Shown: piece after piece, positions 2,747 through 28,436 of the stretch
How positions within the stretch are numbered: the first letter of the stretch is position 1
How the letters are laid out: each line of letters opens with the position of its first letter
DNA from: Phycisphaerae bacterium
GTDB taxonomy: Bacteria; Planctomycetota; Phycisphaerae; Phycisphaerales; UBA1924
Length of the DNA stretch: 64,000 nucleotides
Assembly (NCBI GenBank): GCA_030429705.1
Contig: JAUIES010000001.1
Location: forward strand, 682,001 to 746,000
Reading direction: 5' to 3'
Position numbers and translations under genes: made by a program
The notes under the pieces: model-generated
The model's database searches: none
Told to the model about the DNA's origin: nothing
Seen by the model: the letters and a program-made list of their open reading frames with translations, nothing else

Positions 2747-3487
2747 ATGTCTGTTCAACCGCTTCATTCGTCGTCGAACGCTTCCGATCCACACGGATCG
2801 GGTGGTTCTTTGAGCGGATATCTGATCGGCTTGTGGTTTCTCGTGCTGGCGGCGATTCTCTGGTTCGGCTCACTCGATCTTGAGACGCCCGCGGCTCCGA
2901 CGCCCGCGTTTGATCGAGCGGCCCTCGATTTCGGCCCGCGCCGGACGATGATGCTGGACCCACCGACAACGAATATCGCCGGGTTTGATCAGCAGTGCAG
3001 CGCATGCCACAACTTGTTCAAGTCCAACTGGGATGGTTCGAGGCCGCTGTCGCAGCACACAGCAATCGACTTGCGGCACGGGCTGAACGACAGGTGTTCG
3101 AATTGTCATTCTGACGACAATCGCGACAAGTTGGCGACCTATGACGGCCGGGAGTTGCCCTTTGCTGATGTTGTTACGCTATGTGCATCGTGTCATGGTC
3201 CGATCGTGCGTGACTGGAACCGCGGAACACATGGCAAGACACTCGGTTCATGGCAACGGACTTCGCCGGACTTCCAGCGTCTGGCGTGCACTTCGTGCCA
3301 CGATCCACACCACCCCGCGTATGAACCGATGAAGCCACTGCCTGGTCCGCACACGCTTCGGATGACTGAGCCGTCGTCTGACCACGGTTTGCACGATGAG
3401 CCGAGCAACAACCCGCTTCGTCGAAACTGGAGTATCCCGGCCGACCACAACGACGACCACTCTGAGAACGGGGGGGACGAAGGATGA
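2747..3487 (+). CDS. Membrane-anchored tetraheme cytochrome c
   Basis: Electron-transfer subunit of 246 residues. One N-terminal membrane segment (~25-41, LIGLWFLVLAAILWFG) places the rest in the periplasm. Four CXXCH heme sites follow: CSACH (~84), CSNCH (~117), CASCH (~146) and CTSCH (~181). The His-rich, acidic tail has no known domain. An upstream TTG at 2738 is in frame, but the ATG at 2747 is preferred. Its stop overlaps the next start (ATGA), so it is coupled to a ferredoxin and an NrfD protein. The set resembles the cytochrome/FeS/NrfD core of Qrc- and Act-type quinone-linked complexes. It most likely passes electrons between that membrane module and the octaheme cytochrome encoded downstream. 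Confidence 0.85.
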   Translation: MSVQPLHSSSNASDPHGSGGSLSGYLIGLWFLVLAAILWFGSLDLETPAAPTPAFDRAALDFGPRRTMMLDPPTTNIAGFDQQCSACHNLFKSNWDGSRPLSQHTAIDLRHGLNDRCSNCHSDDNRDKLATYDGRELPFADVVTLCASCHGPIVRDWNRGTHGKTLGSWQRTSPDFQRLACTSCHDPHHPAYEPMKPLPGPHTLRMTEPSSDHGLHDEPSNNPLRRNWSIPADHNDDHSENGGDEG

Positions 3488-4551
3488 AACTTCCCGTCAT
3501 CGATCAACAGCCGACCTCCACTTGTCATTCGTCATCAGGCGGACGAAACCCGTATGGCGGCCTGTCCCGACCGGGCATGACGCGCCGCAGTTTTTTGCGG
3601 CGTGGTGCTGCAACCACCGGCGGATTGGCTGCACTCGCAGCGTCACTGAGCCCCCTGCGCGATCTTGACAGCGACGATGCGCCGTCGGTTCAGAAGTTTC
3701 TACAAAAGCACTACAAGGAAATGGACGGAGCCGACATGGAGGCGGCTCTCGAACGCATTCGCAATGAAGTCGAGCATCGTTACGAGGTGCGCCCGAACAT
3801 TCGAGACATCAAGCCGATGGATGGTGTCGAGTTTGTGTATGCGTTGAACCTGAGTCGGTGCATTGGTTGCCGCCGGTGTGTGCACGCCTGTGTCGAGGAG
3901 AACAACCAAAGCCGCGACCCCGAGATCCAGTACATTCGTGTGCTTGAGATGCCTCGTGGTTCGATGGATATCGAGGACGGCAACCACCACTACGATCATG
4001 AGACGGTGCCGGACGAGTCTCATTTCTACATGCCGATTCAGTGCCATCAGTGTGCGAATCCCCCGTGCGTCAAGGTGTGCCCTGTCGAAGCCACCTGGCA
4101 AGAACCGGACGGGATTACCGTTGTTGACTACGACTGGTGCATTGGTTGTCGGTACTGTGAAGCCGCGTGCCCGTACTGGGCTCGACGGTTCAACTTCTCC
4201 AAACCAACACTTCCCAAGGCCGATTTGAATCCGGACATGTCGTATCTGTCGAATCGCCCGCGTCAAAAGGGCGTGATGGAAAAGTGTCATTTCTGCCTGC
4301 ATCGGACGCGCGAAGGGCGTATGCCCGCGTGTCTCGAAGTGTGCCCGACGGGCGCTCGCAAGTTTGGCAATGTGCTGGACCCACAAAGCGAAGTGTCGCA
4401 GATTTTGCGCACGAAGCGTGTGTTCGTGCTCAAGGCTGAAGTCGGGACTTTGCCGAGGTTCTTCTATTACTTCGACGAGCGCGACCCGTTTGCCCAATTG
4501 ACGATCGAGAGCGTTGACGCAAAGACTGTATCTGCAGGGAGCGCACCATGA
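3484..4551 (+). CDS. Tat-exported 4x[4Fe-4S] ferredoxin subunit (NrfC/PsrB/HybA type)
   Basis: Periplasmic iron-sulfur subunit of 355 residues. A twin-arginine signal (TRRSFLRR, residues 33-40, then a hydrophobic Ala/Leu stretch) predicts folded export. Four cysteine groups bind four [4Fe-4S] clusters: C126/129/132/136, C187/190/195/199, C219/222/225/229 and C268/271/283/287. The third spacing in the second and fourth groups is the one usual for NrfC/PsrB/DmsB proteins. It overlaps both neighbours by ATGA, giving the order tetraheme cytochrome, ferredoxin, NrfD. By analogy with NrfC-NrfD and PsrB-PsrC it wires the quinone site of the NrfD protein to the multiheme cytochromes. Confidence 0.92.
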   Translation: MKLPVIDQQPTSTCHSSSGGRNPYGGLSRPGMTRRSFLRRGAATTGGLAALAASLSPLRDLDSDDAPSVQKFLQKHYKEMDGADMEAALERIRNEVEHRYEVRPNIRDIKPMDGVEFVYALNLSRCIGCRRCVHACVEENNQSRDPEIQYIRVLEMPRGSMDIEDGNHHYDHETVPDESHFYMPIQCHQCANPPCVKVCPVEATWQEPDGITVVDYDWCIGCRYCEAACPYWARRFNFSKPTLPKADLNPDMSYLSNRPRQKGVMEKCHFCLHRTREGRMPACLEVCPTGARKFGNVLDPQSEVSQILRTKRVFVLKAEVGTLPRFFYYFDERDPFAQLTIESVDAKTVSAGSAP

Positions 4552-5816
4552 GGGAATACCTGCGATTCCTGTCGCGCTGCTTTCGCCTGAGTTTCCACGG
4601 CAATTGGCAGTACTACGCGTGGATGCTCGCGTTGACCATCGTCGCACTGGTCGGCTTGAACGCGTACGCCAAACAGATTGTCGCAGGGCTTGCGACGACC
4701 GGCATGACCGATCAGGTTTCATGGGGTTTGTATATCGCCAACTTCACTTACCTGGTTGGTGTGGCTGCTGCTGCGGTGATGCTCGTCATCCCCGTCTACA
4801 TTTACAAGAACCGGGACCTTAGCAACCTCGTTATTCTTGGTGAACTGCTCGCGGTTGCAGCGATCATCATGAGCTTGCTGTTCGTGATGGTTGACCTCGG
4901 TCGCCCGGACCGATTCCATCACCTCTTGCTTCGGTTCAACTTCCCGCAATCGATTCTGACCTGGGATGTCATCGTGCTCAATGTGTATCTGCTGCTCAAC
5001 CTGCATATTTGCGGGTATCTGATTTACTGCAAATATTGCAAGCGCGAGCCGAGCAGGAAATTCTATATACCGTTCGTGTTCATCGCGATTGTGTGGGCGA
5101 TCAGCATTCATACCGTAACGGCGTTTCTGTATTCCGGACTTGGCGGCCGCCCGTTCTGGAACTCTGCGGTGATCGCACCGCGGTTCATCGCGTCTGCGTT
5201 CGCTGCCGGTCCGGCGATCATCATCCTGACGCTGCAGGTGATCCAAAGAGCGACGCGGCATCCGGTTCGACCTGCCGCATTGCAGTTACTTCGCCGCATT
5301 GTCACCGTGGCGTTGAGTATCAATATGTTCCTGCTTGGTTCAGAATTGTTCACCGCGTTTTACACCGGCGGTACGCACGCAGTCTCGGCGAAGTACTTGT
5401 TCTTTGGACTGCATGGATACCACGCATTGGTGCCGTGGATCTGGACGGCGGTCGCACTCAATATGCTTGCGCTAATTGTGCTGTACACGCCGCTGGCCCT
5501 GAAAATGCGATACCTCAACCTTGCGTGCGTCGCGATGGTCATTGGTATCTGGATTGAAAAGGGGATGGGTCTTGTGGTCCCTGCCTTTGTTCCATCGCCG
5601 ATCGGCGAGATTGTCGAGTATTTCCCCACGCTCAACGAGATTCTGGTGTGCCTCGGCATCTGGGCGTTTGGGCTGTTGTTGTACACGATCTTTGTGCGTA
5701 TCACGATCCCTGTGTTGCAGGGACGACTTTTGATTGATGTTGTTTTTCATACCGTTCAACACCAAGTCGCAGCGGAATCGCCTGCGGCACAACCTGTAGT
5801 GGAGGTCGCCTCATGA
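4548..5816 (+). CDS. NrfD/PsrC-family quinone-interacting membrane protein
   Basis: Integral membrane subunit of 422 residues with about eight to ten hydrophobic helices from residue ~22 to ~400, and no cofactor motif. NrfD/PsrC proteins bind menaquinol or menaquinone and hand electrons to, or take them from, a partner FeS protein. Features such as 'MVDLGRPDRFHHLLLRFNFP' in the third to fourth helix region match this family. It is locked between the ferredoxin and the octaheme cytochrome by ATGA overlaps at both ends, so equal translation is expected. The length agrees with the long NrfD subtype found in alternative-complex-III-like and Qrc-like systems. Confidence 0.9.
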   Translation: MREYLRFLSRCFRLSFHGNWQYYAWMLALTIVALVGLNAYAKQIVAGLATTGMTDQVSWGLYIANFTYLVGVAAAAVMLVIPVYIYKNRDLSNLVILGELLAVAAIIMSLLFVMVDLGRPDRFHHLLLRFNFPQSILTWDVIVLNVYLLLNLHICGYLIYCKYCKREPSRKFYIPFVFIAIVWAISIHTVTAFLYSGLGGRPFWNSAVIAPRFIASAFAAGPAIIILTLQVIQRATRHPVRPAALQLLRRIVTVALSINMFLLGSELFTAFYTGGTHAVSAKYLFFGLHGYHALVPWIWTAVALNMLALIVLYTPLALKMRYLNLACVAMVIGIWIEKGMGLVVPAFVPSPIGEIVEYFPTLNEILVCLGIWAFGLLLYTIFVRITIPVLQGRLLIDVVFHTVQHQVAAESPAAQPVVEVAS

Positions 5817-7270
5817 AACGACAAATGTGGTGGAACAGATTCTGTGCTTCAGGTGCACTGGCTGCGTTGAGTTGCGGCGCACTTGGACAGGCCTTTGGTC
5901 CGGCGGAACTGAGCACGCAGACCAAGGAATGTCTGGAGTGTCACCAGAAGATTGATCACGGGTTGTATCAGCAATGGGGTGAAAGCAAGCACTATGGCGC
6001 GAATGTTGGTTGTTATGAGTGCCACACCGCGAACGAAGGCGACCCCGACGGATGGATGCACGAGGGCTATCGCATCTCCGTTCTGGTGACGCCCAAAGAC
6101 TGCGGTCGGTGCCACACCAAGGAAGCAGCCGAGTTCACCGCGTCACACCACGCCAAAGCCGGACGCATCCTTGGCTCACTCGACAATGTGCTCGCTGAAG
6201 TCGTCGAAGGCAATCGAGGGATGGTGACACCTGGATTCCCGGATGGTGTCGCGGCTTCGGCTGTGAACGGGTGCTGGCAATGCCATGGTTCCGAGGTCAA
6301 AGTCCTCGCGAATGGGCGTCTTGACCCGGCGACTTACCCAAACAGTGGCATCGGCCGAATCAACCCGGACGGATCCGAAGGCACCTGTAACGCGTGCCAC
6401 CTGCGGCACGAGTTTGATGTCGCCCAGGTGAGGCACCCCGACACTTGCGGCAAGTGTCACCTCGGTCCTGACCATCCTCAAAAAGAAGTCTACGAAGAGT
6501 CAAAGCACGGCATCGCGTTCTTCGCCAATGAAGACGAGATGAACATGGATTCATCCAAGTGGATTGTCGGGCAGGACTACTGGGCTGCCCCCACCTGTGC
6601 GACCTGCCATATGTCCGCGACGGAATCGATGCCCGTGACCCACGATGTCGGGATGCGCATTTCTTGGAACAATCGTCCGGCTATTTCTGTGCGTCCGGAA
6701 GTATCGGATGCGAAGATGGGGTTGCCGGGCGCGAATGTGCCTTGGCAGGTACGCCGCGCCAACATGCAGAATGTGTGTACCGCGTGTCACGAGACGCAGT
6801 GGGTTGAAAATTTCTATGTGCAGTACGATGCGTTGATCGAACTGTACCGCGTGAAGTTCGGCGAACCCGGCTTGGCGCTCTACAAGCTTGCCAAGCCGCT
6901 GATGAAGCCTGTGGCGTTTGGGAACAAGATCGACTTCATCTGGTTCGAGATCTGGCACCACGAAGGGCGTCGTGCCCGGCACGGTGCAGCGATGATGGCA
7001 CCGGACTACACCCACTGGCACGGCACCTATGAAGTCGCCAAGAAGTTCTACGCTGAATACATCCCTGAACTCGAAGAGCTCGCTGAAAAGCATCTGCACA
7101 GCGATGACGCAGACAAGCGCGATGCTGCTGAAGCGCTGCAGCACAAGCTCGAAGAGGTGCTCAACAGCGAGAACCACCGTTGGTTCGAAGGCAAGATGGA
7201 CCCAGCCGAAGCTGCTCGTCGCAAGGCTGCCAAGGAAGCCTTTGAACAGCGCTACAACAAGGACGACTGA
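5813..7270 (+). CDS. Octaheme cytochrome c, hydroxylamine oxidoreductase-like
   Basis: Likely catalytic subunit, 485 residues, with an N-terminal signal peptide (~1-25). Eight CXXCH sites are visible: residues 40, 67, 97, 154, 192, 212, 262 and 322. There is no CXXCK site, which argues against NrfA and octaheme tetrathionate reductase. A heme-free, helical C-terminal third (~330-485, with a His-rich 'PDYTHWHGTYE' segment) is the HAO-family layout. It is shorter than nitrifier HAO and closer in size to the reductive epsilonproteobacterial HAO group. Whether the Tyr that cross-links the P460 heme is present needs an alignment. That residue separates hydroxylamine oxidation from nitrite or hydroxylamine reduction. 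Coupling to an NrfD/FeS module hints at the reductive direction (inference). Confidence 0.85.
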   Translation: MKRQMWWNRFCASGALAALSCGALGQAFGPAELSTQTKECLECHQKIDHGLYQQWGESKHYGANVGCYECHTANEGDPDGWMHEGYRISVLVTPKDCGRCHTKEAAEFTASHHAKAGRILGSLDNVLAEVVEGNRGMVTPGFPDGVAASAVNGCWQCHGSEVKVLANGRLDPATYPNSGIGRINPDGSEGTCNACHLRHEFDVAQVRHPDTCGKCHLGPDHPQKEVYEESKHGIAFFANEDEMNMDSSKWIVGQDYWAAPTCATCHMSATESMPVTHDVGMRISWNNRPAISVRPEVSDAKMGLPGANVPWQVRRANMQNVCTACHETQWVENFYVQYDALIELYRVKFGEPGLALYKLAKPLMKPVAFGNKIDFIWFEIWHHEGRRARHGAAMMAPDYTHWHGTYEVAKKFYAEYIPELEELAEKHLHSDDADKRDAAEALQHKLEEVLNSENHRWFEGKMDPAEAARRKAAKEAFEQRYNKDD

Positions 7271-7348
7271 TACCCCCACCTCTTCCCGGTGAAAACTGAG
7301 AAGAGGTTTTGTTCGATTCGTTCATTCTTTTACGATCTGATCATAACC

Positions 7349-7813
7349 ATGCCAAACCGACCGAGTGAAGATGATGGCCGCATCGCGCTGCGTGAGCATG
7401 TCGCCGAGAAAGCGATGGAAGCTCGCGTGAAGCATGGTTTGTGTGTGGATACTGAGGAGATTCTGAAGTTACTCAATGATCGCACGATCGTTCGCTACCC
7501 GGTGGGCATTCGTTTTGACGAAGAGCCTCTTGAACCAGGCGAGTTTGCCTGGCCGATGCCGCTTGGCGATTCGCCGAGCAATGGTTTTTGCCTATTTGTT
7601 CACCCGTATTTCGAGGATCGGCCCGATGCGTGGCCGCTCATCATCGCGTACCACATTCCGTCGATCAACTACGGCGAGATCGTGTCACACGATGAAGCCG
7701 AGTTGTACGGTGCCACGCTGCTGGGACTTGAATCCGAAGACTACTACCAAAGCCTTTGCGAACTCGCGGATGCGTGTGTCTCGCCGACATCAACAAACGG
7801 AGTGTCATCATGA
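7349..7813 (+). CDS. Conserved-looking small cytoplasmic protein in the octaheme operon
   Basis: A 154-residue acidic, soluble protein with no signal peptide, membrane segment, Cys motif or domain that I recognise. Its position between the octaheme cytochrome and the ResB maturation gene, with its stop overlapping the ResB start by ATGA, ties it to the operon. A role in assembly or maturation is possible but unsupported. An upstream in-frame ATG (7289) would add 20 residues. The start used here (MPNRPSEDD) gives a cleaner protein, though no strong Shine-Dalgarno precedes either. Confidence 0.6.
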   Translation: MPNRPSEDDGRIALREHVAEKAMEARVKHGLCVDTEEILKLLNDRTIVRYPVGIRFDEEPLEPGEFAWPMPLGDSPSNGFCLFVHPYFEDRPDAWPLIIAYHIPSINYGEIVSHDEAELYGATLLGLESEDYYQSLCELADACVSPTSTNGVSS

Positions 7814-9717
7814 AACCCGTACATGATTGGCATCACACGCGATTGGGTCGCACCATTCTGTTTCTCGGCGGGATTCGTCTCGCTGTCCCCGTGTTGATTC
7901 TGGTCGCTGCCGCGTTGAGTTGGGGCACATGGCTCGAATCGACGCGTTCGGCACAGGAGGCCGGGCGACTGGTCTATGGCTCAGGGTGGTTCCTCGCGTT
8001 GATGATTCTCGTGTGCTCGAGCCTGACAATTTCAGTGATCACAAGATGGCCTTGGCAGCGCAAACATGTTGGATTCATTGTCGTACACGCGAGTTTGATT
8101 CTGATCATTGTGTCAGGATTCATCTCGTTCTTCACGCGCGTCGAGGGAACGATCACGCTGGCGACGGGCGAACGGGCAGACCACCTGCAGATGCAAACGC
8201 GGCACCTCGAACTTCTCGAACATGATGCCGGACAGTTTGAATCGATCGAATCTGCTGACATAACCGGCTCAGACACGATCCTGATTGGTGGTGCTCAGTT
8301 CACGATTACTGATCGTTGGCCCAACACAACGGAAGAACTCACAGTCAAGAACGATGGTGCGAATCCGCTGCACGCAGTTGAACTCGTCCCTGGGACGGGC
8401 GACCCGGTGTGGATCGGACAAACCAAGCCCGGCGACCCCAGTGAAGACCTCGGCGGCGTCTTCGTTCGCGTGTTGCCTGCTGGCGAATCTTGGCAACCAC
8501 CCGTTCAAGCACGCTCGCTGTTGCTTCGTTCACGAGACGGCGCAACGATCGCGGTGCCGGGCGTTGGTGAGTCGCTTGCAGAGACATCGTGGCGTGTTGA
8601 GTCCATCGAACAGTTTGAACACGCTGTGGTCGACGAGCATGGTCTTTCTGAGCGCGAGGGGGGATCGGCAAACCCGGCTGCCCGAGTCACGCTCGTGCAC
8701 GAAGACGGCTCGCGCGAGATACTCGTTGCTTTTGGGCGATTTCGTGATAGCGTTCACAAGCAACTGACCAACGGCGAAACCCACTCGCCGTATGTCCTTG
8801 CCTATGAGGGCGATGCTGGTGAATGGCCTCTCATTGCATTCGAGCGTGCTGGCAGCACGCCAACGATCACGATTGCCAGTGGTGACGGCGAGACTGAACG
8901 ATTTACGCACGACGGAGACTGGCCTTGGCAGGTCGAATCTGCACTCGTCGGGCCTTTTGAAGTACTGCACGATTATACGAACGCTCGCGGCACGACCGAA
9001 CTCGTTCGTGCCCCAGCGGAAGACAACACGGTGCCCGCGATTGTCGCCGAATATGACACACATGGTCATTCGCACCGCGTCATCTTCCCGTGGGGGCAGC
9101 GCATTCCGGTGCAGGTCGATGATGAAGTCCTGATGATTCGCTATGGACCCAAGGTGCGCGCGCTGCCCTTTGCGATTGAACTCACAGAGTTTCGCAAGTT
9201 GGATTACCCAGGCTCTGACATGGCTATGGCGTATGAGTCTGATGTCATCTTTGAAACACCGGAGATGTCACCCACCGCGATGACGGTGTGGATGAACAAC
9301 CCGCTGAAATACAAGGGCTGGAAGGTCTATCAATCGGGCTTTGTCGGGAACACAATTTCAGTCTTCCAGGTCGCGCGCGACCCGGGTGTCGTCCCGATGT
9401 ACATCGGGTGTATCGGTTTGTGTGTCGGTATCGCGATCACCTTCTACAGCCGCTCGTTGAGTCGTGGACATCCTGGCATTCCAACGCCATTCACGGCACG
9501 CGTTTCTGACAGGGGCCAATATCATGTTGAAGCATCCGATCATCAAAGTGATTCTGTGCATCTTGCTGAGTCCAACGGCTTTGGCAACGGCGCAGTCCGA
9601 ACAGGCGCTGCAGGCTTTGTCGAGTGTTCCGATTCAGGATCAAGGGCGGGTGATGCCGCTCGAAACATTCGCGAATCAGATCGCGACGAGGCTGACAGGC
9701 CGCACGAAGTGGTCTGA
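7810..9717 (+). CDS. resB: ResB-like cytochrome c biogenesis protein
   Basis: System II cytochrome c maturation protein. With CcsA it carries heme across the membrane and ligates it to CXXCH apoproteins. N-terminal helices at ~10-35, ~55-75 and ~85-110 are followed by a large periplasmic domain and a last helix near residue 535-555 (MYIGCIGLCVGIAITFYSRS). The start at 7810 overlaps the preceding stop by ATGA. The C-terminal ~65 residues, after the last helix, overlap the start of ccsA by 194 bases in another frame and have the look of out-of-frame translation. The natural end may be near 9509, with a frameshift in the sequence or gene. The operon's 14 heme sites explain why a maturation pair is encoded here. 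Confidence 0.85.
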   Translation: MKPVHDWHHTRLGRTILFLGGIRLAVPVLILVAAALSWGTWLESTRSAQEAGRLVYGSGWFLALMILVCSSLTISVITRWPWQRKHVGFIVVHASLILIIVSGFISFFTRVEGTITLATGERADHLQMQTRHLELLEHDAGQFESIESADITGSDTILIGGAQFTITDRWPNTTEELTVKNDGANPLHAVELVPGTGDPVWIGQTKPGDPSEDLGGVFVRVLPAGESWQPPVQARSLLLRSRDGATIAVPGVGESLAETSWRVESIEQFEHAVVDEHGLSEREGGSANPAARVTLVHEDGSREILVAFGRFRDSVHKQLTNGETHSPYVLAYEGDAGEWPLIAFERAGSTPTITIASGDGETERFTHDGDWPWQVESALVGPFEVLHDYTNARGTTELVRAPAEDNTVPAIVAEYDTHGHSHRVIFPWGQRIPVQVDDEVLMIRYGPKVRALPFAIELTEFRKLDYPGSDMAMAYESDVIFETPEMSPTAMTVWMNNPLKYKGWKVYQSGFVGNTISVFQVARDPGVVPMYIGCIGLCVGIAITFYSRSLSRGHPGIPTPFTARVSDRGQYHVEASDHQSDSVHLAESNGFGNGAVRTGAAGFVECSDSGSRAGDAARNIRESDRDEADRPHEVV

Positions 9718-11236
9718 AGAGAAGGGCCCTGCCGGATTCGCCGGTCGGCCTGCGATTGCCCTGCTCGGCGATCTGATGTTCGACCCGGACTCGTTCTGGG
9801 ATGTCGAACTCATTCGCATCGAACGCAAACCGCTGAAGCGGCTTGTTGGTCTCGACGAAGAACGGCGGTTCTTCTCGCCGACCGAGATCATGGCGTGCAG
9901 TCCGTTGCATGATCTTGCGGACGACTTCCGCGTTCGCCGAAGCATGGTTGATGCCAGTCTGAGACCAAGTCCGGATGAGCGGGCTGCGCTCGAAGCCGAG
10001 CGAGCGTTCGGCATTTTTGCATCGTTCGTCAACAAGACGCCCATGCCTCTGTATCCAATGGGCGAAGGTGAGACCTTTGATCGCATCGCACTCTCTGACA
10101 GTGGCAATCCGGCGAGCGATGCCGAGACTGCATTGCATGAACTGGGCGCCGCCTGGCGTCATGGTGCCGATTGCACGAGCGAGTCACAAGCGTTCGCTGC
10201 CTCGATCGAGCAGTTACCGACCTACACCGCACCGATGCAGCGGCGTGTTTCGCTCGAGAAGTTCTATAACACCCATCGACCATGGATGTGGGCTGCTGTT
10301 GCAAGTGGGCTCGCCCTTCTGGCATTTGGCGCAAAGTGGCTGACGAACTTACGCGTGCTTTCGGTCCTCATTGCTGTTTTTATTGCGTGGGCAGTTGCTG
10401 AGCAAGTTGTTGGACTGGGGCTGCGCATCGCCATTCTCGGTCGCCCGCCAGTCTCGAATACCTACGAAGCGTTGCTCTGGATGGGTCTGGTTTCAATCAT
10501 CATCGGCGGTGTCGCCCAGTTGATCAATCGACGCAGTTGGTACCTCGCTGGCGCGATGGCTGCGTGTTTGATCTCGATTCTGTTCGCCATGCTTGTGCCG
10601 CTGCAAGACCAGACGAACAGTTTGCCAGCGGTCCTTCGAAGCAACTACTGGTTGATTATTCATGTGCTCACCATCACCGCGTCATACGGCGCTTTGCTGC
10701 TGGCGGCTGTGATCGGTCATGCGTATCTGATTCGCAATGTCCTACTCGCGCGCCCTGATCACGAGCCGTCGTCACGCCTTGTCGTCCAGGTCTATCGCGT
10801 CATGCAACTTGGGCTCATCTTGCTCACCGCGGGCACCATTCTTGGTGGCGTGTGGGCTGCAGATTCGTGGGGCCGATTCTGGGGGTGGGATCCAAAGGAA
10901 ACCTGGTCACTCATCAGCATCATCGTTTACTTCGCGTTGATCCACGCTCGTTATGTCGGGTGGCTGCGTGATTTCGGGCTTGCGGTCGCATCGATCATCG
11001 GCTTCATGGCGATCGTGTGGACATTCTATGGCGTCAACTATGTGCTCGCTTCCGGGTTGCACTCATATGGCTTTGGAACCGGCGGCGAATTCTGGGTTGC
11101 GATGTGGGCGATCGCAGAAGTCGTGTTTATTGGCGTGTGCCTTCTTCGACGCGCCCCAACGAAACCGACAGGTCCTGACAACAACACCCGTTCTCGGGAT
11201 CAATCGACCAGAGCGATACCGGCCAGTTCATCATGA
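9524..11236 (+). CDS. ccsA: CcsA-type cytochrome c biogenesis protein
   Basis: Heme-handling partner of ResB, 570 residues. The N-terminus (LKHPIIKVILCILLSPTALA) looks like a signal or anchor, followed by a ~240-residue periplasmic region. A multi-helix CcsA/CcmF core then contains the Trp-rich heme-handling motif WGRFWGWDPKETW (~residues 450-462). Conserved His residues flank it. The start at 9524 is preferred over 9464 because it opens directly with the hydrophobic leader. Its stop overlaps the next gene by ATGA. The long N-terminal periplasmic domain is typical of planctomycete and Bacteroidetes-like fused CcsA proteins (inference). Confidence 0.88.
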   Translation: MLKHPIIKVILCILLSPTALATAQSEQALQALSSVPIQDQGRVMPLETFANQIATRLTGRTKWSEEKGPAGFAGRPAIALLGDLMFDPDSFWDVELIRIERKPLKRLVGLDEERRFFSPTEIMACSPLHDLADDFRVRRSMVDASLRPSPDERAALEAERAFGIFASFVNKTPMPLYPMGEGETFDRIALSDSGNPASDAETALHELGAAWRHGADCTSESQAFAASIEQLPTYTAPMQRRVSLEKFYNTHRPWMWAAVASGLALLAFGAKWLTNLRVLSVLIAVFIAWAVAEQVVGLGLRIAILGRPPVSNTYEALLWMGLVSIIIGGVAQLINRRSWYLAGAMAACLISILFAMLVPLQDQTNSLPAVLRSNYWLIIHVLTITASYGALLLAAVIGHAYLIRNVLLARPDHEPSSRLVVQVYRVMQLGLILLTAGTILGGVWAADSWGRFWGWDPKETWSLISIIVYFALIHARYVGWLRDFGLAVASIIGFMAIVWTFYGVNYVLASGLHSYGFGTGGEFWVAMWAIAEVVFIGVCLLRRAPTKPTGPDNNTRSRDQSTRAIPASSS

Positions 11237-11709
11237 CACCCGATCGGACGATTTTTCGAGTCCCAGCACGCACGGTCTGTGTGATCTCTGTTCTGGCATT
11301 TCCATTTGGTTGCGCGGAACAATCGTCGAATCCCACAGCGACGACACCTCCTGATGACCCAGCGCCTCAAGCAGTGCCACGCCAGCATGAATCGGAGGCA
11401 CCCCCCGAAGCCATGACCGGGCACGAGTTGTTTATTGCTCGATGCGCTCCCTGCCATGGCTACGACGGTCGTGGCGATGGGCCGATTGCAGAGTTTCTCC
11501 CTGCGAGGCCTCGTGGTCTGGTCAGCGATGAATGGCAGTTCGTCGAACACACTGACGCGGTTTCGGAACGAGAAGGCATCGCAAACATCATTCGACTTGG
11601 CATCATCGAGTCTCACATGCCAGCGTTTCAAGACCAACTCAGCGAAACGGAAATCAATGCGATCGTGACCCATGTCCTCACCATCCGTGAGAACGATCGC
11701 TCACCCTAA
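11233..11709 (+). CDS. Monoheme cytochrome c lipoprotein
   Basis: Small electron carrier of 158 residues. A lipobox-like leader (LAFPFGC) predicts a lipoprotein tethered to a membrane. A Pro/Ala linker follows, then one heme site CAPCH near residue 74 and a downstream Met (SHMPAF) suited to be the sixth ligand, as in class I cytochromes c. It is joined to ccsA by an ATGA overlap and precedes the porin gene by ~20 bases. It may carry electrons between this complex and other periplasmic partners. Confidence 0.85.
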   Translation: MTPDRTIFRVPARTVCVISVLAFPFGCAEQSSNPTATTPPDDPAPQAVPRQHESEAPPEAMTGHELFIARCAPCHGYDGRGDGPIAEFLPARPRGLVSDEWQFVEHTDAVSEREGIANIIRLGIIESHMPAFQDQLSETEINAIVTHVLTIRENDRSP

Positions 11710-11730
11710 TCACCGTTCATGGAGATTCTC

Positions 11731-13098
11731 ATGACGCAACACACCCTCTCTCGACCGTTGATTGCTGCTTGCCTGATATCGTGCATATCAGGTTTTGCAT
11801 TCGCGCAAGACACGACACAACAAGCGGCGAACGAGGCGTCAAACGGTTCGACGCAAGCGGAGTCGCCGGTTCTTGAGAATCCGAAGTTGGATTTTGGGTA
11901 TATCTCCGACCCAAGCATACCTCCCAAGGATATTTTTGAGGCGTTGTTCAGCGGCAAGATTCACCTCAACAACCGATTCCGCGTTGAGCTCGCAGACACG
12001 ACCGGCCTAGATTCTTCGACAGCATTGACCAACCGCCTCCGACTCGGTTACGAAACGAAGCCGTTTCATGGGTTCAGTCTGTTCATCGAGATGGAAAATG
12101 TCGCGACGCTTGATGACAACAACTACTTCGTTCCGGCGACGGGCGACGGCACGCCGACACGCACCGTTGTGGCTGACCCCCCCGGCACCGAGGTAAACCA
12201 GGCATATGCTCGCTACAAAACAACTTCACTCGGCGAATCGGATGTCTCGCTTGATTTCAAAGCCGGGCGGCAACGCATCAAACTTGACGATGACCGGTTT
12301 GTCGGGAATGTCGGTTGGCGGCAGTTTGAACAGACTTACGATGCTGTCAGCGTGTCGACCAACCTTGGGGTTGACAAACTCACTGTTCAATACGCCTATG
12401 TCTGGCATGTGCAACGCATCTTTGGCCCGGACGGACCAAACTGGGACTCGGACAGCCACTTCGTGCGCATCTCGTATGCATTCATGCCAGAGTTGACGGT
12501 GACCCCGTTTGTGTACCTGCTTGATTTTGATTCAAACTCGCCGGCGAACTCAGTCAACAACATTGGTGTGCGTTTCACCGGCACCATCGACCGAGACACA
12601 GACGACGCTGAAGACCTGTTCTTCAACTATGAGTTGACTTATGCCCATCAGTCTGACGCTGGCATGAATCCGACGAGTTACGAAGCCGACTTTTTCGCTG
12701 TCCAGGGCAAGGTGACGAAAAAGGGTCTCGGTGCACTCATTGCTGGGTACCAGTTCATGGGGAGTGACAATGGCATGGCAGCGTTCAGATTCCCGCTTGG
12801 CACAAACCACAAGTTTCAGGGATTTGCTGATCAGTTCCTGACCACACCGGCCACCGGGCTGCAGGACTTGTATGTCACAGCGGTGGTTGAACTCCCGCAT
12901 GGCATCACACCCGCGATCACCTTCCACCAATTCTGGTCAGACCAAGGTAACACAGACCTCGGTTTTGAAACAGACCTGGTTGCAAGCAAGAAGATGAACG
13001 ACAACTGGTCGGTCCTCGTCAAGGCCGCCTACTTCGACGGACACAATGGCGGTCCGGACACAACCAAGTTCTGGCTTGAAACAACGCTGCACTTCTAA
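11731..13098 (+). CDS. Outer-membrane porin (alginate-export/AlgE-like beta barrel)
   Basis: A 455-residue exported protein. The signal peptide (~1-23, ending GFAFAQ) is followed by a low-complexity Thr/Ser/Glu linker. The rest is amphipathic, with alternating aromatic residues and a final aromatic residue (TTLHF), as in outer-membrane barrels. 'FKAGRQRIKLDDDRFVGNVG' resembles the strand-turn pattern of alginate-export family porins. The start at 11731 is preceded by GGAG at good spacing, better than the ATG at 11719. As the last gene of the octaheme operon it could admit the substrate of that system, such as nitrite or hydroxylamine. That is inference from position only. Confidence 0.8.
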   Translation: MTQHTLSRPLIAACLISCISGFAFAQDTTQQAANEASNGSTQAESPVLENPKLDFGYISDPSIPPKDIFEALFSGKIHLNNRFRVELADTTGLDSSTALTNRLRLGYETKPFHGFSLFIEMENVATLDDNNYFVPATGDGTPTRTVVADPPGTEVNQAYARYKTTSLGESDVSLDFKAGRQRIKLDDDRFVGNVGWRQFEQTYDAVSVSTNLGVDKLTVQYAYVWHVQRIFGPDGPNWDSDSHFVRISYAFMPELTVTPFVYLLDFDSNSPANSVNNIGVRFTGTIDRDTDDAEDLFFNYELTYAHQSDAGMNPTSYEADFFAVQGKVTKKGLGALIAGYQFMGSDNGMAAFRFPLGTNHKFQGFADQFLTTPATGLQDLYVTAVVELPHGITPAITFHQFWSDQGNTDLGFETDLVASKKMNDNWSVLVKAAYFDGHNGGPDTTKFWLETTLHF

Positions 13099-13267: not shown

Positions 13268-14287
13268 ATGTTGAAAACACATGCGCTCTGCATTGCTGCA
13301 CTCGCGCTCACAGGCTCGTTGTCGACCATGGCCTTGGCACAAGAAGCCAGACGCGTTGGCGGCGATCTTTTCGCGACTTCGACACAAGATAACGGCGTGT
13401 ATCGCAGCGGCAGCGCCATCGTCCGCGAAAGTCTGCCCGAGGGCTACCCCGCGCCGACTCCACCAGGCGCGATTGAGATCAAGTCGTATCCGTCGGTTCG
13501 CCGAGCCGAAGTCTCGGGGTCTGGAAATCCTCAGCGTGGTTCGGGCATGGCGTTCTTCTCGCTGTTCTCCCACATTCAGGAACGCGATATTGCAATGACA
13601 TCTCCAGTCGAGACCGACCTCCGAGCGTGGTCGTCGGTCGATGGGTCTGCGGATGGATGGACGATGTCATTTCTCTATCGGAACGCTGAGCTCGGCCCGC
13701 TTGGTGATGATGGTCGTATCACTGTGCGCGATACGGAGCCGGTGACAGTCGTTTCGATCGGGCTGCAGGGTGCGTATGGCGAACAGACATTCCGCCGAGG
13801 CTTGGCAGTGTTGAACGCGTGGCTTGAGGCACAGGATGAGTGGACTCCGGATGGTGATCCAAGGTCGTTGTCCTACAACGGCCCTTCCATTCCGGATGCC
13901 CGCAAATGGGCGGAGATACAAATCCCGGTTCGTCCGGTCGCTGCCGGATCATCCAAGCCGATCGTCAGAGATGGTGCTGCGCAGGATGCCGAGCGGGTTG
14001 CTCGAACCAATGAAAACGCTGCAGAGATCATTCAAATAGCCATCACTCGCGGTGTTCCTCTGTTCAACAACGGCCATCCGGAAGCGTGTGCTGCGATTTA
14101 TGAAGTCGCTGCCCGGTGTGTCCTGGCGATCAATCCCATGCGTTTGACAACTCACGGTCGCCAATCGCTGAACGATGCGCTGGACACGGTCAGTACGAGC
14201 CAGAATGCGTCTGAAGTCGCGTGGGCGCTGCGCTCAGCTCTCGACGAGGTGTTCAACTTACTCAGCCAGACCGCGCAGCACCCATGA
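13268..14287 (+). CDS. SOUL-family heme-binding protein, exported
   Basis: A 339-residue protein with a signal peptide (~1-25, ending TMALAQE). Residues ~45-220 match the SOUL/heme-binding-protein fold, with 'IEIKSYPSVRRAEV' at the start and 'DIAMTSPVETDL' in the middle. SOUL proteins bind heme or related hydrophobic ligands. The last ~110 residues form an extra helical region I do not recognise, so the protein is longer than usual for the family. AAGGAG seven bases upstream fixes the start. It lies between a multiheme cytochrome operon and a catalase, so a role in periplasmic heme handling or heme stress is plausible (inference). Confidence 0.8.
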   Translation: MLKTHALCIAALALTGSLSTMALAQEARRVGGDLFATSTQDNGVYRSGSAIVRESLPEGYPAPTPPGAIEIKSYPSVRRAEVSGSGNPQRGSGMAFFSLFSHIQERDIAMTSPVETDLRAWSSVDGSADGWTMSFLYRNAELGPLGDDGRITVRDTEPVTVVSIGLQGAYGEQTFRRGLAVLNAWLEAQDEWTPDGDPRSLSYNGPSIPDARKWAEIQIPVRPVAAGSSKPIVRDGAAQDAERVARTNENAAEIIQIAITRGVPLFNNGHPEACAAIYEVAARCVLAINPMRLTTHGRQSLNDALDTVSTSQNASEVAWALRSALDEVFNLLSQTAQHP

Positions 14288-14367
14288 TCTACGACCGAAT
14301 ACCTGAACCACAGTTTGACCAAAAACTTGCTGATTTCTGCATATTTTCTGAGGCGAGCGTCCTAGAT

Positions 14368-14382
14368 TTAGAATGATTCTAA
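14368..14382. promoter_or_regulatory. PerR-like operator upstream of the catalase
   Basis: TTAGAATGATTCTAA is a perfect 7-1-7 inverted repeat. It differs from the Bacillus PerR box (TTATAATNATTATAA) by one symmetric change in each half. It ends 32 bases before the catalase start, where a repressor would block transcription or initiation. No perR gene lies in the window. Confidence 0.65.
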
Positions 14383-14414
14383 TCTTTGAGCCGCATTCCA
14401 ACGAGGAGACCAGC

Positions 14415-15908
14415 ATGACCAACGAGCACACAGACGCTTCTGAGCAGTGCCCGATTCTCACAACAGCAGATGGCGCACCTATCGGCCGCCAGCACGCCCT
14501 GACCGCGGGACCGCGCGGTCCGCTCCTGATGCAAGATGTTCAATTGCTCGAACAGATGCAGCATTTCAATCGCGAACGCATCCCTGAACGCGTTGTCCAT
14601 GCCAAAGGGTCTGGCGCGTATGGCACCTTCACCGTCACACACGATATCTCGCAGTACACCAAGGCAGCCTTGTTTTCGGAGCCAGGGAAACAGACCGCGT
14701 TGTTCCTGCGATTCTCAACCGTGGCGGGTGAACGCGGCGCTGCCGATGCTGAACGCGATGTGCGAGGCTTTGCGATCAAGTTCTACACGGAAGAGGGCAA
14801 CTGGGACATGGTGGGCAACAACACCCCGGTGTTCTTTGTGCGCGACCCGTACAAGTTTGCAAACTTCATTCATACGCAAAAGCGTCACGCCAAAGCCAAC
14901 ACGCGGTGCAATGACATGCAGTGGGACTTCTGGAGCCAGTGCCCCGAGTCATTGCATCAGGTCACGATTCTCTTTTCTGATCGCGGCTTGCCCGCTTCCT
15001 ACCGACATCTGAATGGCTATGGCAGTCATACCTATTCGCTGATCAACGCTTCGGGTGAACGCGTGTGGTGCAAGTTCCATTTCAAAACCAATCAAGGCGT
15101 CAAGAACTGGATGGATGACAAGGCTGCAGAAGTCGTCGGCCAAGATCGCGAGAGCCACCAGCGTGACCTTTATGAGGCAATCGAACGCGGTGAGTATCCG
15201 AGTTGGACGCTGAAGATCCAAGTCATGACACAGAAGCAGGCGGATGCGTTCGAATGGAATCCGTTTGATTTGACGAAGGTGTGGCCTCATGCAGAGTTCC
15301 CGCCGATCGAAGTCGGGCAGATGGAGTTGAACAAGAATCCTGAAAACTACCACGCCGAGGTTGAGCAGGCTGCGTTTAAACCTTCGGCACTTGTGCCGGG
15401 TATTGGTTCAAGCCCCGACAAGATGCTGCAGGCGCGATTGATGTCGTACGCTGACACGCACTTGCATCGGCTTGGCGTGAACCATCATCAGATTCCGGTG
15501 AACAAGCCACGCTGCCCGGTGATGAACTATATGCGTGATGGGCAGGGCGCAACGGGTGAGTTTTACGCAACCAAGACCAACTACTGGCCGAATACGAATG
15601 ACGGGACACCCATGCCAAGTGAACGGTTTTCCGACCCCGCTTGGGACCTGGGACAAGCGGTGGCCGATCGGTTTGATTCGACGCAGGACCACGATGATTT
15701 CACACAAGCGGGCAACCTGTATCGCATGTTTGATGAGGGTGAGCGCGATCGCCTGACAACGCGGATTGCTGGTGCTCTCGGTGATGCTCGGCAAGAGATT
15801 CAAATGCGCCAGATCTGCCACTTCTTCCGCGCGGATGCAGACTATGGCCGACGAGTTGCTGAGAAACTCAACATTGATATCGAGTCCATGGCCGCTCACG
15901 CTCAATAG
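14415..15908 (+). CDS. katA: Monofunctional heme catalase
   Basis: Converts hydrogen peroxide to water and oxygen. The 497-residue length fits small-subunit catalases. The N-terminal signature region (LTAGPRGPLLMQDVQ, then HFNRERIPERVVHAKG) contains the distal catalytic His in VVHAKG. The distal Asn lies in the DMVGNNTPVFFVRD segment, and the proximal heme-ligand Tyr in RLMSYADTHLHRLG. GAGGAG precedes the start at 14415. An in-frame extension to 14373 would run through the PerR-like box and is rejected. Peroxide control by a PerR/Fur-family repressor is likely. A perfect hairpin terminator follows. Confidence 0.95.
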   Translation: MTNEHTDASEQCPILTTADGAPIGRQHALTAGPRGPLLMQDVQLLEQMQHFNRERIPERVVHAKGSGAYGTFTVTHDISQYTKAALFSEPGKQTALFLRFSTVAGERGAADAERDVRGFAIKFYTEEGNWDMVGNNTPVFFVRDPYKFANFIHTQKRHAKANTRCNDMQWDFWSQCPESLHQVTILFSDRGLPASYRHLNGYGSHTYSLINASGERVWCKFHFKTNQGVKNWMDDKAAEVVGQDRESHQRDLYEAIERGEYPSWTLKIQVMTQKQADAFEWNPFDLTKVWPHAEFPPIEVGQMELNKNPENYHAEVEQAAFKPSALVPGIGSSPDKMLQARLMSYADTHLHRLGVNHHQIPVNKPRCPVMNYMRDGQGATGEFYATKTNYWPNTNDGTPMPSERFSDPAWDLGQAVADRFDSTQDHDDFTQAGNLYRMFDEGERDRLTTRIAGALGDARQEIQMRQICHFFRADADYGRRVAEKLNIDIESMAAHAQ

Positions 15909-23294: not shown

Positions 23295-24689
23295 CTAAAA
23301 ATGTGTGGGCTTGCGTTTGAGCAACTGCCCTCGTCCAATAGTCCCGACAAACGCGCCGTCGCGTGCTTGCACTTGTCCGCGCACCGTGACAATCTCGGAT
23401 CGACCGGTCACCTCCCAGCCTTCGTAGCCGTTGTAATCTACTTTTGAGTGGCTGGTGGCGACACCGAGTGTGTGCGATCGATTCGGGTCATAAACGACGA
23501 GGTCGGCATCGGCACCAACACTGATCGAGCCCTTCCTCGGGTACAACCCAAACAACTGGGCGGGCTTGGTGCTACAGGCATTGACCATCGTGTGCAGATC
23601 AATCTTTCCCGACAGCACGCCAAAGGTGTGTACTAGATCGATGCGCTCCTGAATGGAGGGGATACCGTTCGGGATTTTTGTGAATGCATCACGCCCCATG
23701 TCTTTTTGACCTGCGAAGTCGAACGGTGCGTGGTCGGTCCCGATGGTTGAGACAAGCCCCGCACGCAGGCCGTTCCAGAGTGCGTCCTGATTGCTCTTCT
23801 CGCGCAGCGGCGGCGACATGACATACTTGGCACCCTCGAACCCGTCGCGTTCCGGATAGGTCTTGTCGAGGACGAGATGCGGCGCAACCGCTTCGACCCA
23901 GACATGCACACCGCGAAGTTGTGCTTCAATCGCTGCTCGCAGCGCGGCTTCGCATGAGGTGTGGACAACATAGATGTGTGCGCCGGTGAGTTCGGCGAAT
24001 GTCGCGAGATGTTGCACCCCGCTCGCTTCGACCGTCGTCGGTCGCGACGGTTCGTGCCACTCCGGCCCGGTTTTGCCCGCGTCGAGCAAGAGGTTCTGCA
24101 TGGCATCGATTGCATCCGCGTTCTCGCAGTGTGCGGTGACGATGACACCCTCCGCCTTGGCAAGTTGCAAGAGTCGAAACAGATCTGTGTCACTGAGATC
24201 AAGCGCACCCTTGTAGGCAAGAAACACTTTGAACGATGCAACCCCTTTTTCGCGGACCAACTGCACCAGTTGCTGCTGGGCGAGTTCGTCAAACCGAACC
24301 ACCGCCAGATGAAACGCGTAGTCGACAGCCGCCAGTGGGACTGCCTTGTTGTTCCATTCTTCAAACGCTGCTCTTGGCTCATCGTCAGGGCCGGGGCAGA
24401 TCATTTCGATCAGTGTGGTTGTGCCCCCCGCCAGTGCGGCTTTGGATGCCGACTCGTAGTCGTCTTTCGCGTTCGTCCCCATGAATGGCAGATGAATGTG
24501 CACATGCGGATCAATGAACCCGGGGAACAGGTACTTCCCGGTCGCATCGATCACCTCAGTCTCATCGGCGATTGACCCCGGGTCGATCTCTGGTTCGATG
24601 CGTGTGATCTGCTCGTTTTCGCAGTACACATCGGCGACATAATCGTCCGATGCTGTGATGATTCGGCCGCCCTTGAAAAGCAACGCCAT
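23295..24689 (-). CDS. hydA: Dihydropyrimidinase
   Basis: Opens dihydrouracil or dihydrothymine to the N-carbamoyl beta-amino acid. A 464-residue amidohydrolase, full length for the family. Metal ligands are visible: H62 and H64 in 'DPHVHIHLP', a carboxylated Lys near 160 in 'FKVFLAYKG', H187 in 'TAHCEN', H243 in 'VVHTSCEAA' and Asp in 'GTDHAPFDF'. It is the last gene of a minus-strand operon, 13 bases after the aminotransferase gene, and converges on preA. Hydantoinase activity on other cyclic amides is possible, but the neighbours fix the pathway. Confidence 0.93.
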   Translation of the reverse strand: MALLFKGGRIITASDDYVADVYCENEQITRIEPEIDPGSIADETEVIDATGKYLFPGFIDPHVHIHLPFMGTNAKDDYESASKAALAGGTTTLIEMICPGPDDEPRAAFEEWNNKAVPLAAVDYAFHLAVVRFDELAQQQLVQLVREKGVASFKVFLAYKGALDLSDTDLFRLLQLAKAEGVIVTAHCENADAIDAMQNLLLDAGKTGPEWHEPSRPTTVEASGVQHLATFAELTGAHIYVVHTSCEAALRAAIEAQLRGVHVWVEAVAPHLVLDKTYPERDGFEGAKYVMSPPLREKSNQDALWNGLRAGLVSTIGTDHAPFDFAGQKDMGRDAFTKIPNGIPSIQERIDLVHTFGVLSGKIDLHTMVNACSTKPAQLFGLYPRKGSISVGADADLVVYDPNRSHTLGVATSHSKVDYNGYEGWEVTGRSEIVTVRGQVQARDGAFVGTIGRGQLLKRKPTHF

Positions 24690-24702
24690 TGTTCTGCTCC
24701 TG

Positions 24703-26073
24703 CTATTGTGTCGAGGCTTCGGTCAGCGCGATGTCCAAGACGCGAATCAGAAACTCGACATCCTCACGCGAAATGCACATGGGCGGCTTGATACGCAGCA
24801 CATTGCCATGGATCCCGCCCTTACCGATTAACAGACCGAGTTCTTTGGCGCGTTCAAAGACATCCGCACACATTTTCTTAGCCGGTTCCTTCGTCGTTCG
24901 ATTGGTGACGAGTTCTACTCCCAACATGAGCCCCATCCCTCGCACATCACCGATCGCCTCGTGCTGAGTCTTCAGTTCGATCAGACCTTGCTTGAGATAG
25001 CCGCCGATTTCGAGTGCACGCTTTTGTATGTTTTCATTCAGAATCACATCGAGTGTCGCTTCGCACTGGGCCATCGTCACGGGGTTACCGCCGAAGGTAT
25101 TGAAATGGAGTCGTTGCGACAAAGCCTGTGCAATTTCAGGCCGAGTGACCACAGCACCACAGGGTGCGCCATTCCCCATGCCTTTGGCCATCGTCACCAT
25201 GTCAGGAACAACGCCATGGTTCTCGAACCCCCAGAAGTGATTCCCCGTCCGACCAAAACCGGTTTGCACCTCATCGGATATGCACAGCCCCCCCGCTGCC
25301 CGCACGGACGCATAGACACGCGACAGGTAACCGGGCGGCAACTCAACCGTACCACCCACTCCTTGAATCGGCTCGGCAATGAATGCGGCGATTGCGCCCG
25401 GTGTCGAGTATCGAATCACCTCGTCCACATCTTCAGCATACTTTTCGCCGGCATCCGGGTCGTCATGCCCGAACGGCCCACGATACAAATCTGGACACTT
25501 GGCGTGATGAATGCCAAACCCGTGTGGAACTGGCATCTTCCATGTGTTCTGCGCCGTGAGCCCCATGGCGGTCGGCGACATGCCGTGGTACGCGTTGCGA
25601 AGCGCAATGACATCGAAGTTGCCAGTGTGCGCTCGAGCCATGAGCAACGCGAGGTCGTTTGACTCTGAGCCCGAGTTTGTAAAGTAGCAAACCGACAGGC
25701 CCGACCCCTTGGGAAAGGTGCTCGCGAGTTTCTTGGCATAGGTTGCAATGTTTGGATGCAGATAGATCGTGGTGGTGTGTTGGAACCGTTCGTTCTGCTC
25801 TCGCACAGCGTCGATCACCTTGGGATGGCAGTGCCCGACCGAAACCGTCACGATGCCGGCGAACCCGTCAAGATAGCGTTTGCCCGTTTCATCGAACAGA
25901 TACTGCATCGATCCTTCGACGATCATGACCGGATCACGATAATACAAGAGAATCGCAGGAGACAAGAACTCCTGACGCATCGCGAGCACTTCGTTTCTCG
26001 ATGGCCCTTTGTAGGGCGCGGGCGTGTGTGCACATGCAGGAAGGGTCGGCAGTGTTGATTGTTCTGTCTTCAT
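24703..26073 (-). CDS. Class III PLP aminotransferase (AGXT2-like, beta-alanine/beta-aminoisobutyrate)
   Basis: A 456-residue transaminase. The PLP Lys is in 'DMVTMAKGMGNGAP', the Asp that contacts the pyridine nitrogen is in 'LCISDEVQTGFGRTG', and the phosphate-binding region is 'TNSGSESNDLALLMARA'. Overall resemblance is to AGXT2-type enzymes, which move the amino group of beta-alanine or 3-aminoisobutyrate to pyruvate or glyoxylate. That is the next step after beta-ureidopropionase here. The start at 26073 overlaps the permease stop by ATGA. The products would be malonate or methylmalonate semialdehyde. Confidence 0.88.
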   Translation of the reverse strand: MKTEQSTLPTLPACAHTPAPYKGPSRNEVLAMRQEFLSPAILLYYRDPVMIVEGSMQYLFDETGKRYLDGFAGIVTVSVGHCHPKVIDAVREQNERFQHTTTIYLHPNIATYAKKLASTFPKGSGLSVCYFTNSGSESNDLALLMARAHTGNFDVIALRNAYHGMSPTAMGLTAQNTWKMPVPHGFGIHHAKCPDLYRGPFGHDDPDAGEKYAEDVDEVIRYSTPGAIAAFIAEPIQGVGGTVELPPGYLSRVYASVRAAGGLCISDEVQTGFGRTGNHFWGFENHGVVPDMVTMAKGMGNGAPCGAVVTRPEIAQALSQRLHFNTFGGNPVTMAQCEATLDVILNENIQKRALEIGGYLKQGLIELKTQHEAIGDVRGMGLMLGVELVTNRTTKEPAKKMCADVFERAKELGLLIGKGGIHGNVLRIKPPMCISREDVEFLIRVLDIALTEASTQ

Positions 26074-28410: not shown

Positions 28411-28436
28411 GGCGTACTTTCAAAGAATTGAAGTGT

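Follow-up and report, generated by a model that had tools for sequence, protein, structure and literature searches.

An NrfD-linked HAO-type octaheme cytochrome as a candidate quinol:nitrite reductase in Phycisphaerae and other bacteria

Introduction

An octaheme cytochrome c of the HAO superfamily whose gene directly follows those of an NrfD quinone module raises a simple question: which compound does it act upon, and in which direction do the electrons flow? Here the question concerns a cluster of nine genes in a window of 64,000 nucleotides, which is the whole stretch of DNA analysed (positions 682001-746000 of a 3.49 Mb Phycisphaerae bacterium assembly that is 96% complete; all coordinates below are counted within the window). 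A preliminary description of the cluster had offered two answers, a nitrogen-oxide reductase or a hydroxylamine oxidase, and knew of no described system with this exact gene order. For the first four genes this last point does not hold. Indeed, in 2017 a four-gene locus encoding a HaoA-like protein, NrfD, a 4Fe-4S ferredoxin and a membrane cytochrome was described within the Nap cluster of two ammonifying thermophiles that lack NrfA (PMC5276818). Thermosulfurimonas dismutans forms ammonium from nitrate without NrfA, and the authors left the function of its locus between nitrite and sulfur compounds (PMC5276818); likened by description only, its genes TDIS_0606-0609 are the probable equivalent of the four-gene core discussed here.

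Gene content of the cluster

All nine plus-strand genes that the preliminary description had placed at 2747-13098 were recovered as open reading frames with the coordinates and identities given in Table 1, together with exactly five ATGA overlaps, as it had counted, at 3484, 4548, 5813, 7810 and 11233. The ferredoxin carries the Tat-type motif TRRSFLRRG, and the NrfD subunit matches its Pfam family with an E value of 9.6e-45 and has DsrP as its best model (420 bits; cut-off 350). An NrfD subunit together with a four-cluster FeS subunit makes up an NrfD-type quinone-interacting complex, and the tetraheme cytochrome, the gene for which is co-conserved with those for NrfD and the octaheme, is predicted to act as the electron relay between the FeS subunit and the octaheme. 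DsrMKJOP was also considered and rejected, as the cluster contains neither DsrM nor DsrK and the FeS subunit, for which DsrO is the best model, scores 175 bits, below the DsrO cut-off of 200.

Table 1. Genes of the cluster, with coordinates in the window.
Predicted product	Position	Strand	Features
Membrane-anchored periplasmic tetraheme cytochrome c	2747-3487	+	four CxxCH; one N-terminal TM helix
Tat-exported ferredoxin, DsrO/QrcC/NrfC-like	3484-4551	+	16 cluster Cys, for four [4Fe-4S] clusters
NrfD/DsrP-type integral membrane quinol dehydrogenase subunit	4548-5816	+	PF03916; 10 hydrophobic segments
HAO-superfamily octaheme cytochrome c, 485 aa	5813-7270	+	eight CxxCH; Trp402; Asp220/His221
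Conserved companion protein, 154 aa	7349-7813	+	length as in homologues; in 37 of the 80 listed loci
ResB, system II cytochrome c maturation, accessory	7810-9717	+	outside conserved core
CcsA, system II haem lyase, accessory	9524-11236	+	second copy elsewhere in host genome
Monoheme cytochrome c, accessory	11233-11709	+	
Alginate_exp-family outer-membrane porin, accessory	11719-13098	+	recurrent neighbour

The octaheme and its active site

When the octaheme was compared with the PDB, the closest structure was 4qo5, both with the single sequence (E 5.5e-55, followed by Nitrosomonas HAO, 1fgj, at 2.3e-17) and with a profile of 26 homologues (E 4e-82, against 3.7e-38 for 1fgj), and its Pfam match was PF13447 (E 7.7e-24). 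With eight CxxCH haems and this homology to HAO structures, the protein is a member of the HAO superfamily, and it lies outside the oxidative HAO/HDH branch. The HAO fold assigned in the preliminary description is borne out, the best matches being HAO-type octahemes and not members of another multihaem family. We take 4qo5 to be the Ignicoccus hospitalis octaheme IhOCC of Parey et al. 2016, an enzyme that reportedly reduces both nitrite and hydroxylamine. It is the closest solved relative, sharing the HAO fold and the lack of the cross-linking tyrosine, but it is archaeal and has a valine in place of the histidine of the Asp-His pair.

AlphaFold modelled the octaheme with low confidence (pLDDT 60). 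Residues were mapped with a Scalindua HAO as a bridge, using an ungapped offset from an anchor residue. The tyrosine in the ‘GGWTY’ motif of NeHAO computes to chain position 467, and we take Tyr467 to be the known P460 cross-linking residue. At the equivalent position, which the preliminary description had singled out for alignment, there is a tyrosine in KsHAO and HDH, a tryptophan in HAOr (6h5l), a phenylalanine in 4qo5 and, in the window octaheme, Trp402, which is invariant in two alignments of its homologues (34/34 and 26/26 sequences). Asp267/His268 of NeHAO correspond to Asp220/His221, which are likewise invariant, and hence the catalytic pair of HAO/HDH is retained. In a phylogenetic tree, the octaheme orthologues form one clade (support 99/99) apart from the anammox HAO/HDH/HAOr clade, and the octaheme group and the anammox HAO/HDH group lie on opposite sides of a branch with 100/99 support. 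An oxidative, P460-type HAO/HDH was rejected on the basis of Trp402 and of this separate tree group.

Three other haem enzymes were considered and rejected. MccA, a sulfite reductase of a different octaheme family that contains a copper site, is recognised by a long-spaced haem motif that is absent here: all cysteines of the mature octaheme sit in exactly eight CxxCH motifs, the only two others lying close to the N-terminus, within the signal region. The pentaheme NrfA (PF02335) is represented neither among the Pfam matches of the cluster nor in the host genome, and the octaheme has no CxxCK active-site haem, the pattern of the octaheme nitrite reductase ONR (PMC10716430). The P460 cross-linking tyrosine separates oxidative from reductive HAOs in a 2025 study (PMC12758564). 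The invariant tryptophan at its position favours reduction over hydroxylamine oxidation. The octaheme is predicted to be the catalytic nitrite reductase and possibly a hydroxylamine reductase too.

Nitrogen and respiratory genes of the host

Searches of the host genome found no NapA, NarG, NirK or Hcp and no molybdenum nitrate reductase, NuoG being the only molybdopterin-domain protein found. NOR was not found either; the two PF00115 members of the genome are, judged from sequence, the caa3 subunit CoxA and a fused cbb3 CcoNO. The host appears to be an aerobe able to use external nitrite, which, with no nitrate reductase in the cell, must be imported from a supply that is assumed here. Because the genome holds neither NOR nor Hcp, nitric oxide and free hydroxylamine are disfavoured as end products, and ammonium would be the likeliest and most economical one.

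Distribution and conservation of the cassette

Of 298 genomes of the class, 29, the host among them, carry an orthologue of the octaheme (group 1; 65-73% identity). A second set, overlapping with the first, comprises at least 80 octaheme loci (60-85% identity) in named records, mostly MAGs, which by the names in those records span Planctomycetota, Verrucomicrobiota, Lentisphaerota, Omnitrophota, Latescibacterota, Hydrogenedentota, Myxococcota, Bdellovibrionota, Acidobacteriota, Cloacimonadota, Calditrichota and Pseudomonadota. The tetraheme-FeS-NrfD-octaheme block is complete in 54 of the 80 listed loci, and its recurrence in other genomes indicates that the cluster is not a chance arrangement. 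NrfD is present in 44 of the 50 listed loci flanked by 4 kb or more on either side, across about nine phyla, and lies upstream of the octaheme on the same strand in 54 of the 61 listed loci that carry it. The preliminary description had the octaheme wired to a quinone-type NrfD module, and this holds for most well-flanked homologues; a consistent occurrence of homologues without the module was not seen in the gene neighbourhoods. Pairwise distances between octahemes correlate with those between the NrfD, FeS and tetraheme proteins (rho 0.58, 0.44 and 0.52, respectively; best of 500 permutations 0.26), which is consistent with joint inheritance, with a contribution from shared species history.

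The core is a conserved but not obligatory cassette. Fifteen octaheme genomes, chosen because no NrfD was seen beside the octaheme or because the contig was short, were searched for NrfD, and in 12 of them none of the same type was found anywhere, the other three having one elsewhere (44-50% identity); NrfD is therefore not the sole possible electron donor. Octahemes of the class that are less closely related go with different quinol oxidants. In a second group of about 46% identity (L052, L054, L058), a cytochrome b6-like subunit, the octaheme, NapA and a tetraheme NapB-like protein share one operon. Scalindua sp. SCAELEC01 (L134/L158) has a group-1 octaheme with tetraheme, FeS and NrfD genes in addition to its anammox HAO/HDH set. 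The octaheme clade also has gammaproteobacterial members (L131, L144, L151), which have no adjoining NrfD module; their loci have in common a TPR-type protein with a weak match to MamA, encoded close to the octaheme or to NapA.

Association with nitrate and nitrite reductases

A NapA-like gene lies within about 10 kb of the octaheme, or in the same locus, in 20 of the 80 listed group-1 loci. Sixteen of these are clearly NapA, several passing NCBIfam cut-offs; the remaining four (L076, L079, L091, L106), which stay under the NapA cut-offs, are possibly other molybdoenzymes. NapA and its tetraheme are sometimes found between the octaheme and companion genes (L084/L038, L039, L108, L122), and NapA is rare in the class (16 of 298 genomes). 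NarG, present in 11 of the 298 genomes, is accompanied by a group-1 octaheme in eight (1.1 expected; p 4.1e-7), and NrfA, present in 54, is absent from all 29 genomes with a group-1 octaheme (p 0.004) and from all 65 that carry a HAO-like octaheme of any kind (11.8 expected; p 6.2e-7), all three p values ignoring shared ancestry and MAG gaps. Within the 298 genomes, NrfA and HAO-like octahemes are both present inside the same families and never in the same genome. The association with NapA and NarG and the exclusion of NrfA suggest that the octaheme is an alternative nitrite reductase in the role of NrfA. Together with Trp402, they favour the reductase over the oxidase of the two functions put forward in the preliminary description. 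Reverse-HURM with Hcp was considered and rejected, as Hcp is not enriched with the octaheme (8 of 29 genomes, 13.1 expected, p 0.05) and none was found in the host.

Proposed pathway and alternatives

In our view, the first four genes specify a quinol:nitrite reductase bound to the membrane, with ammonium as its most likely product, and put the probability of this reading at about 0.58. The electron path, its direction, the substrate and the product we infer as follows: NrfD, of the DsrP type, would oxidise quinol at the inner membrane and pass electrons to the four-cluster Tat ferredoxin, from which the anchored tetraheme cytochrome would carry them on to the periplasmic octaheme. There, haem 4, without a P460 tyrosine cross-link, would reduce imported nitrite, most likely with six electrons to ammonium, and hydroxylamine would be accepted as well. 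Against this reading stand the nearest model of the NrfD subunit, DsrP, which is a subunit from sulfur metabolism, the lack of a nitrate reductase in the host and the octaheme genomes in which no NrfD of this type was found. The wider proposal, that a dedicated HAO-type ammonifying nitrite reductase coupled to NrfD conserves energy, takes the place of NrfA and is carried as a cassette across about a dozen phyla, is tentative, and we place it somewhat short of even odds.

The alternative that survives best, though unlikely, is a reductase of the anammox HAOr type that converts nitrite and one electron to nitric oxide. HAOr likewise has a tryptophan in place of the tyrosine and forms NO from nitrite at a low rate (PMC12485887), and NO or ammonium was suggested as the product in a 2024 survey of Phycisphaerae (PMC11266412); however, the PF00115 proteins of the host are only oxidases, the octaheme is far in the tree from the clade that contains HAOr, and the complete exclusion of NrfA suggests that an ammonifying enzyme has been replaced. 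Slightly less probable again is a hydroxylamine (or NO) reductase that serves mainly to detoxify reactive nitrogen released by neighbouring cells and not to respire. This role would suit a host that lives aerobically with two oxidases and lacks nitrate reductase, and nitrite and hydroxylamine are both reduced by OTR, an unrelated octaheme of Shewanella (cited in PMC4911364), but the stable wiring to quinol through NrfD and the NapA operons of many genomes indicate respiration.

The remaining proposals are less probable still. Oxidation of hydroxylamine, with electrons fed to quinone via NrfD, would fit the HAO superfamily and the retained Asp/His pair, yet it is made improbable by the invariant tryptophan and by the nitrate reductases found in association, which form nitrite by reduction. 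Reduction of sulfite or another sulfur oxyanion would accord with the DsrP and DsrO models, with the composition of MccACD, which likewise combines an octaheme with an NrfD-like subunit and a four-cluster FeS protein (PMC8076601), and with the sulfur role considered for the T. dismutans locus (PMC5276818); we nonetheless think it very doubtful, given that none of the eight haem motifs is of the MccA type and that the neighbourhood signal is NapA. Least probable is an electron conduit to extracellular acceptors formed by octaheme and porin. Porin and multihaem genes do adjoin in the cluster, but the porin is of the Alginate_exp family and most core loci have no porin gene close by.

Relation to known systems and significance

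The proposed route resembles NrfABCD, in which electrons pass from quinol through NrfD, the four-cluster NrfC and a multihaem relay to the nitrite reductase; it differs in that the catalytic subunit is an HAO-type octaheme instead of the pentaheme NrfA, the tetraheme is membrane anchored and the NrfD subunit is nearest to DsrP. In the epsilon-Hao and reverse-HURM systems of Nautilia, Caldithrix and Deferribacter, an HAO homologue encoded next to Nap is proposed to be the nitrite reductase and NrfA is missing, and the Caldithrix homologue has no tyrosine at the cross-link position (PMC5317091, PMC6896113). Those systems use other quinol links, and reverse-HURM adds Hcp, whereas the cluster has an NrfD module and no Hcp was found in the host.

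Whilst a probable equivalent of the four-gene core has been known since 2017, its systematic distribution, the exclusion of NrfA and the tryptophan at the P460 position are new. The octaheme is also a new catalytic partner for the NrfD catalogue of a review that names no HAO-type partner (PMC8076601). In 2023, ammonifiers across a million genomes were surveyed solely through nrfA and onr, with HAO-type sequences serving as negative controls (PMC10716430); if the reading is true, a further route of nitrite ammonification goes uncounted in such surveys. Were the cassette to make ammonium, the nitrogen retained by planctomycetes, verrucomicrobia and a number of candidate phyla would be underestimated, and certain genomes in which a nitrite reductase is read as missing would be complete. 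HAO-like octahemes in Phycisphaerae were called Onr in the 2024 survey (PMC11266412), a label that is corrected if these are the same proteins, as the window octaheme does not have the ONR motif. Among the carriers of a HAO-like octaheme that survey names the cultured Poriferisphaera corsica.

Companion protein, accessory genes and surroundings

The companion gene more likely starts at ATG 7349 than at GTG 7289, the former giving a length that fits 28 homologous sequences, and wherever it occurs among the listed loci it is on the octaheme strand. Its product is confidently modelled by AlphaFold (pLDDT 93); the model has no PDB match at E<=0.001, a Pfam search at E 10 returned a chance match only, and no signal peptide or cofactor motif was seen in the sequence. 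The protein is probably an assembly or maturation factor, and in the proposed pathway it would help to assemble the complex.

The tail of ResB, CcsA and porin genes is outside the conserved core. Of the 80 loci listed, L072, L073 and, weakly, L086 are the only ones with ResB close to the octaheme; CcsA is found there in L072 and L136, with a ResB-CcsA fusion in L039. These genes, with that of the monoheme cytochrome, would have been added in the window lineage, serving haem attachment and the passage of solutes across the outer membrane. The preliminary description had pictured a self-contained system with its own maturation genes and porin, which is true of the closest relatives only and is not a general rule; porins of the same family are often neighbours (19 of the 80 listed loci), though not always. 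The reading frames of ResB and CcsA share about 190 nt (9524-9717), and a similar overlap is seen in L072; it may be genuine, or one annotated end may be wrong. Directly 3' of the cluster, on the same strand, are genes for a SOUL haem-binding protein and a catalase (13268-15905), and further downstream a set of minus-strand genes (23298-29933) resembles, judged by their translations, a pyrimidine-catabolism cluster with dihydropyrimidinase-like, ureidopropionase-like and aldehyde dehydrogenase members.
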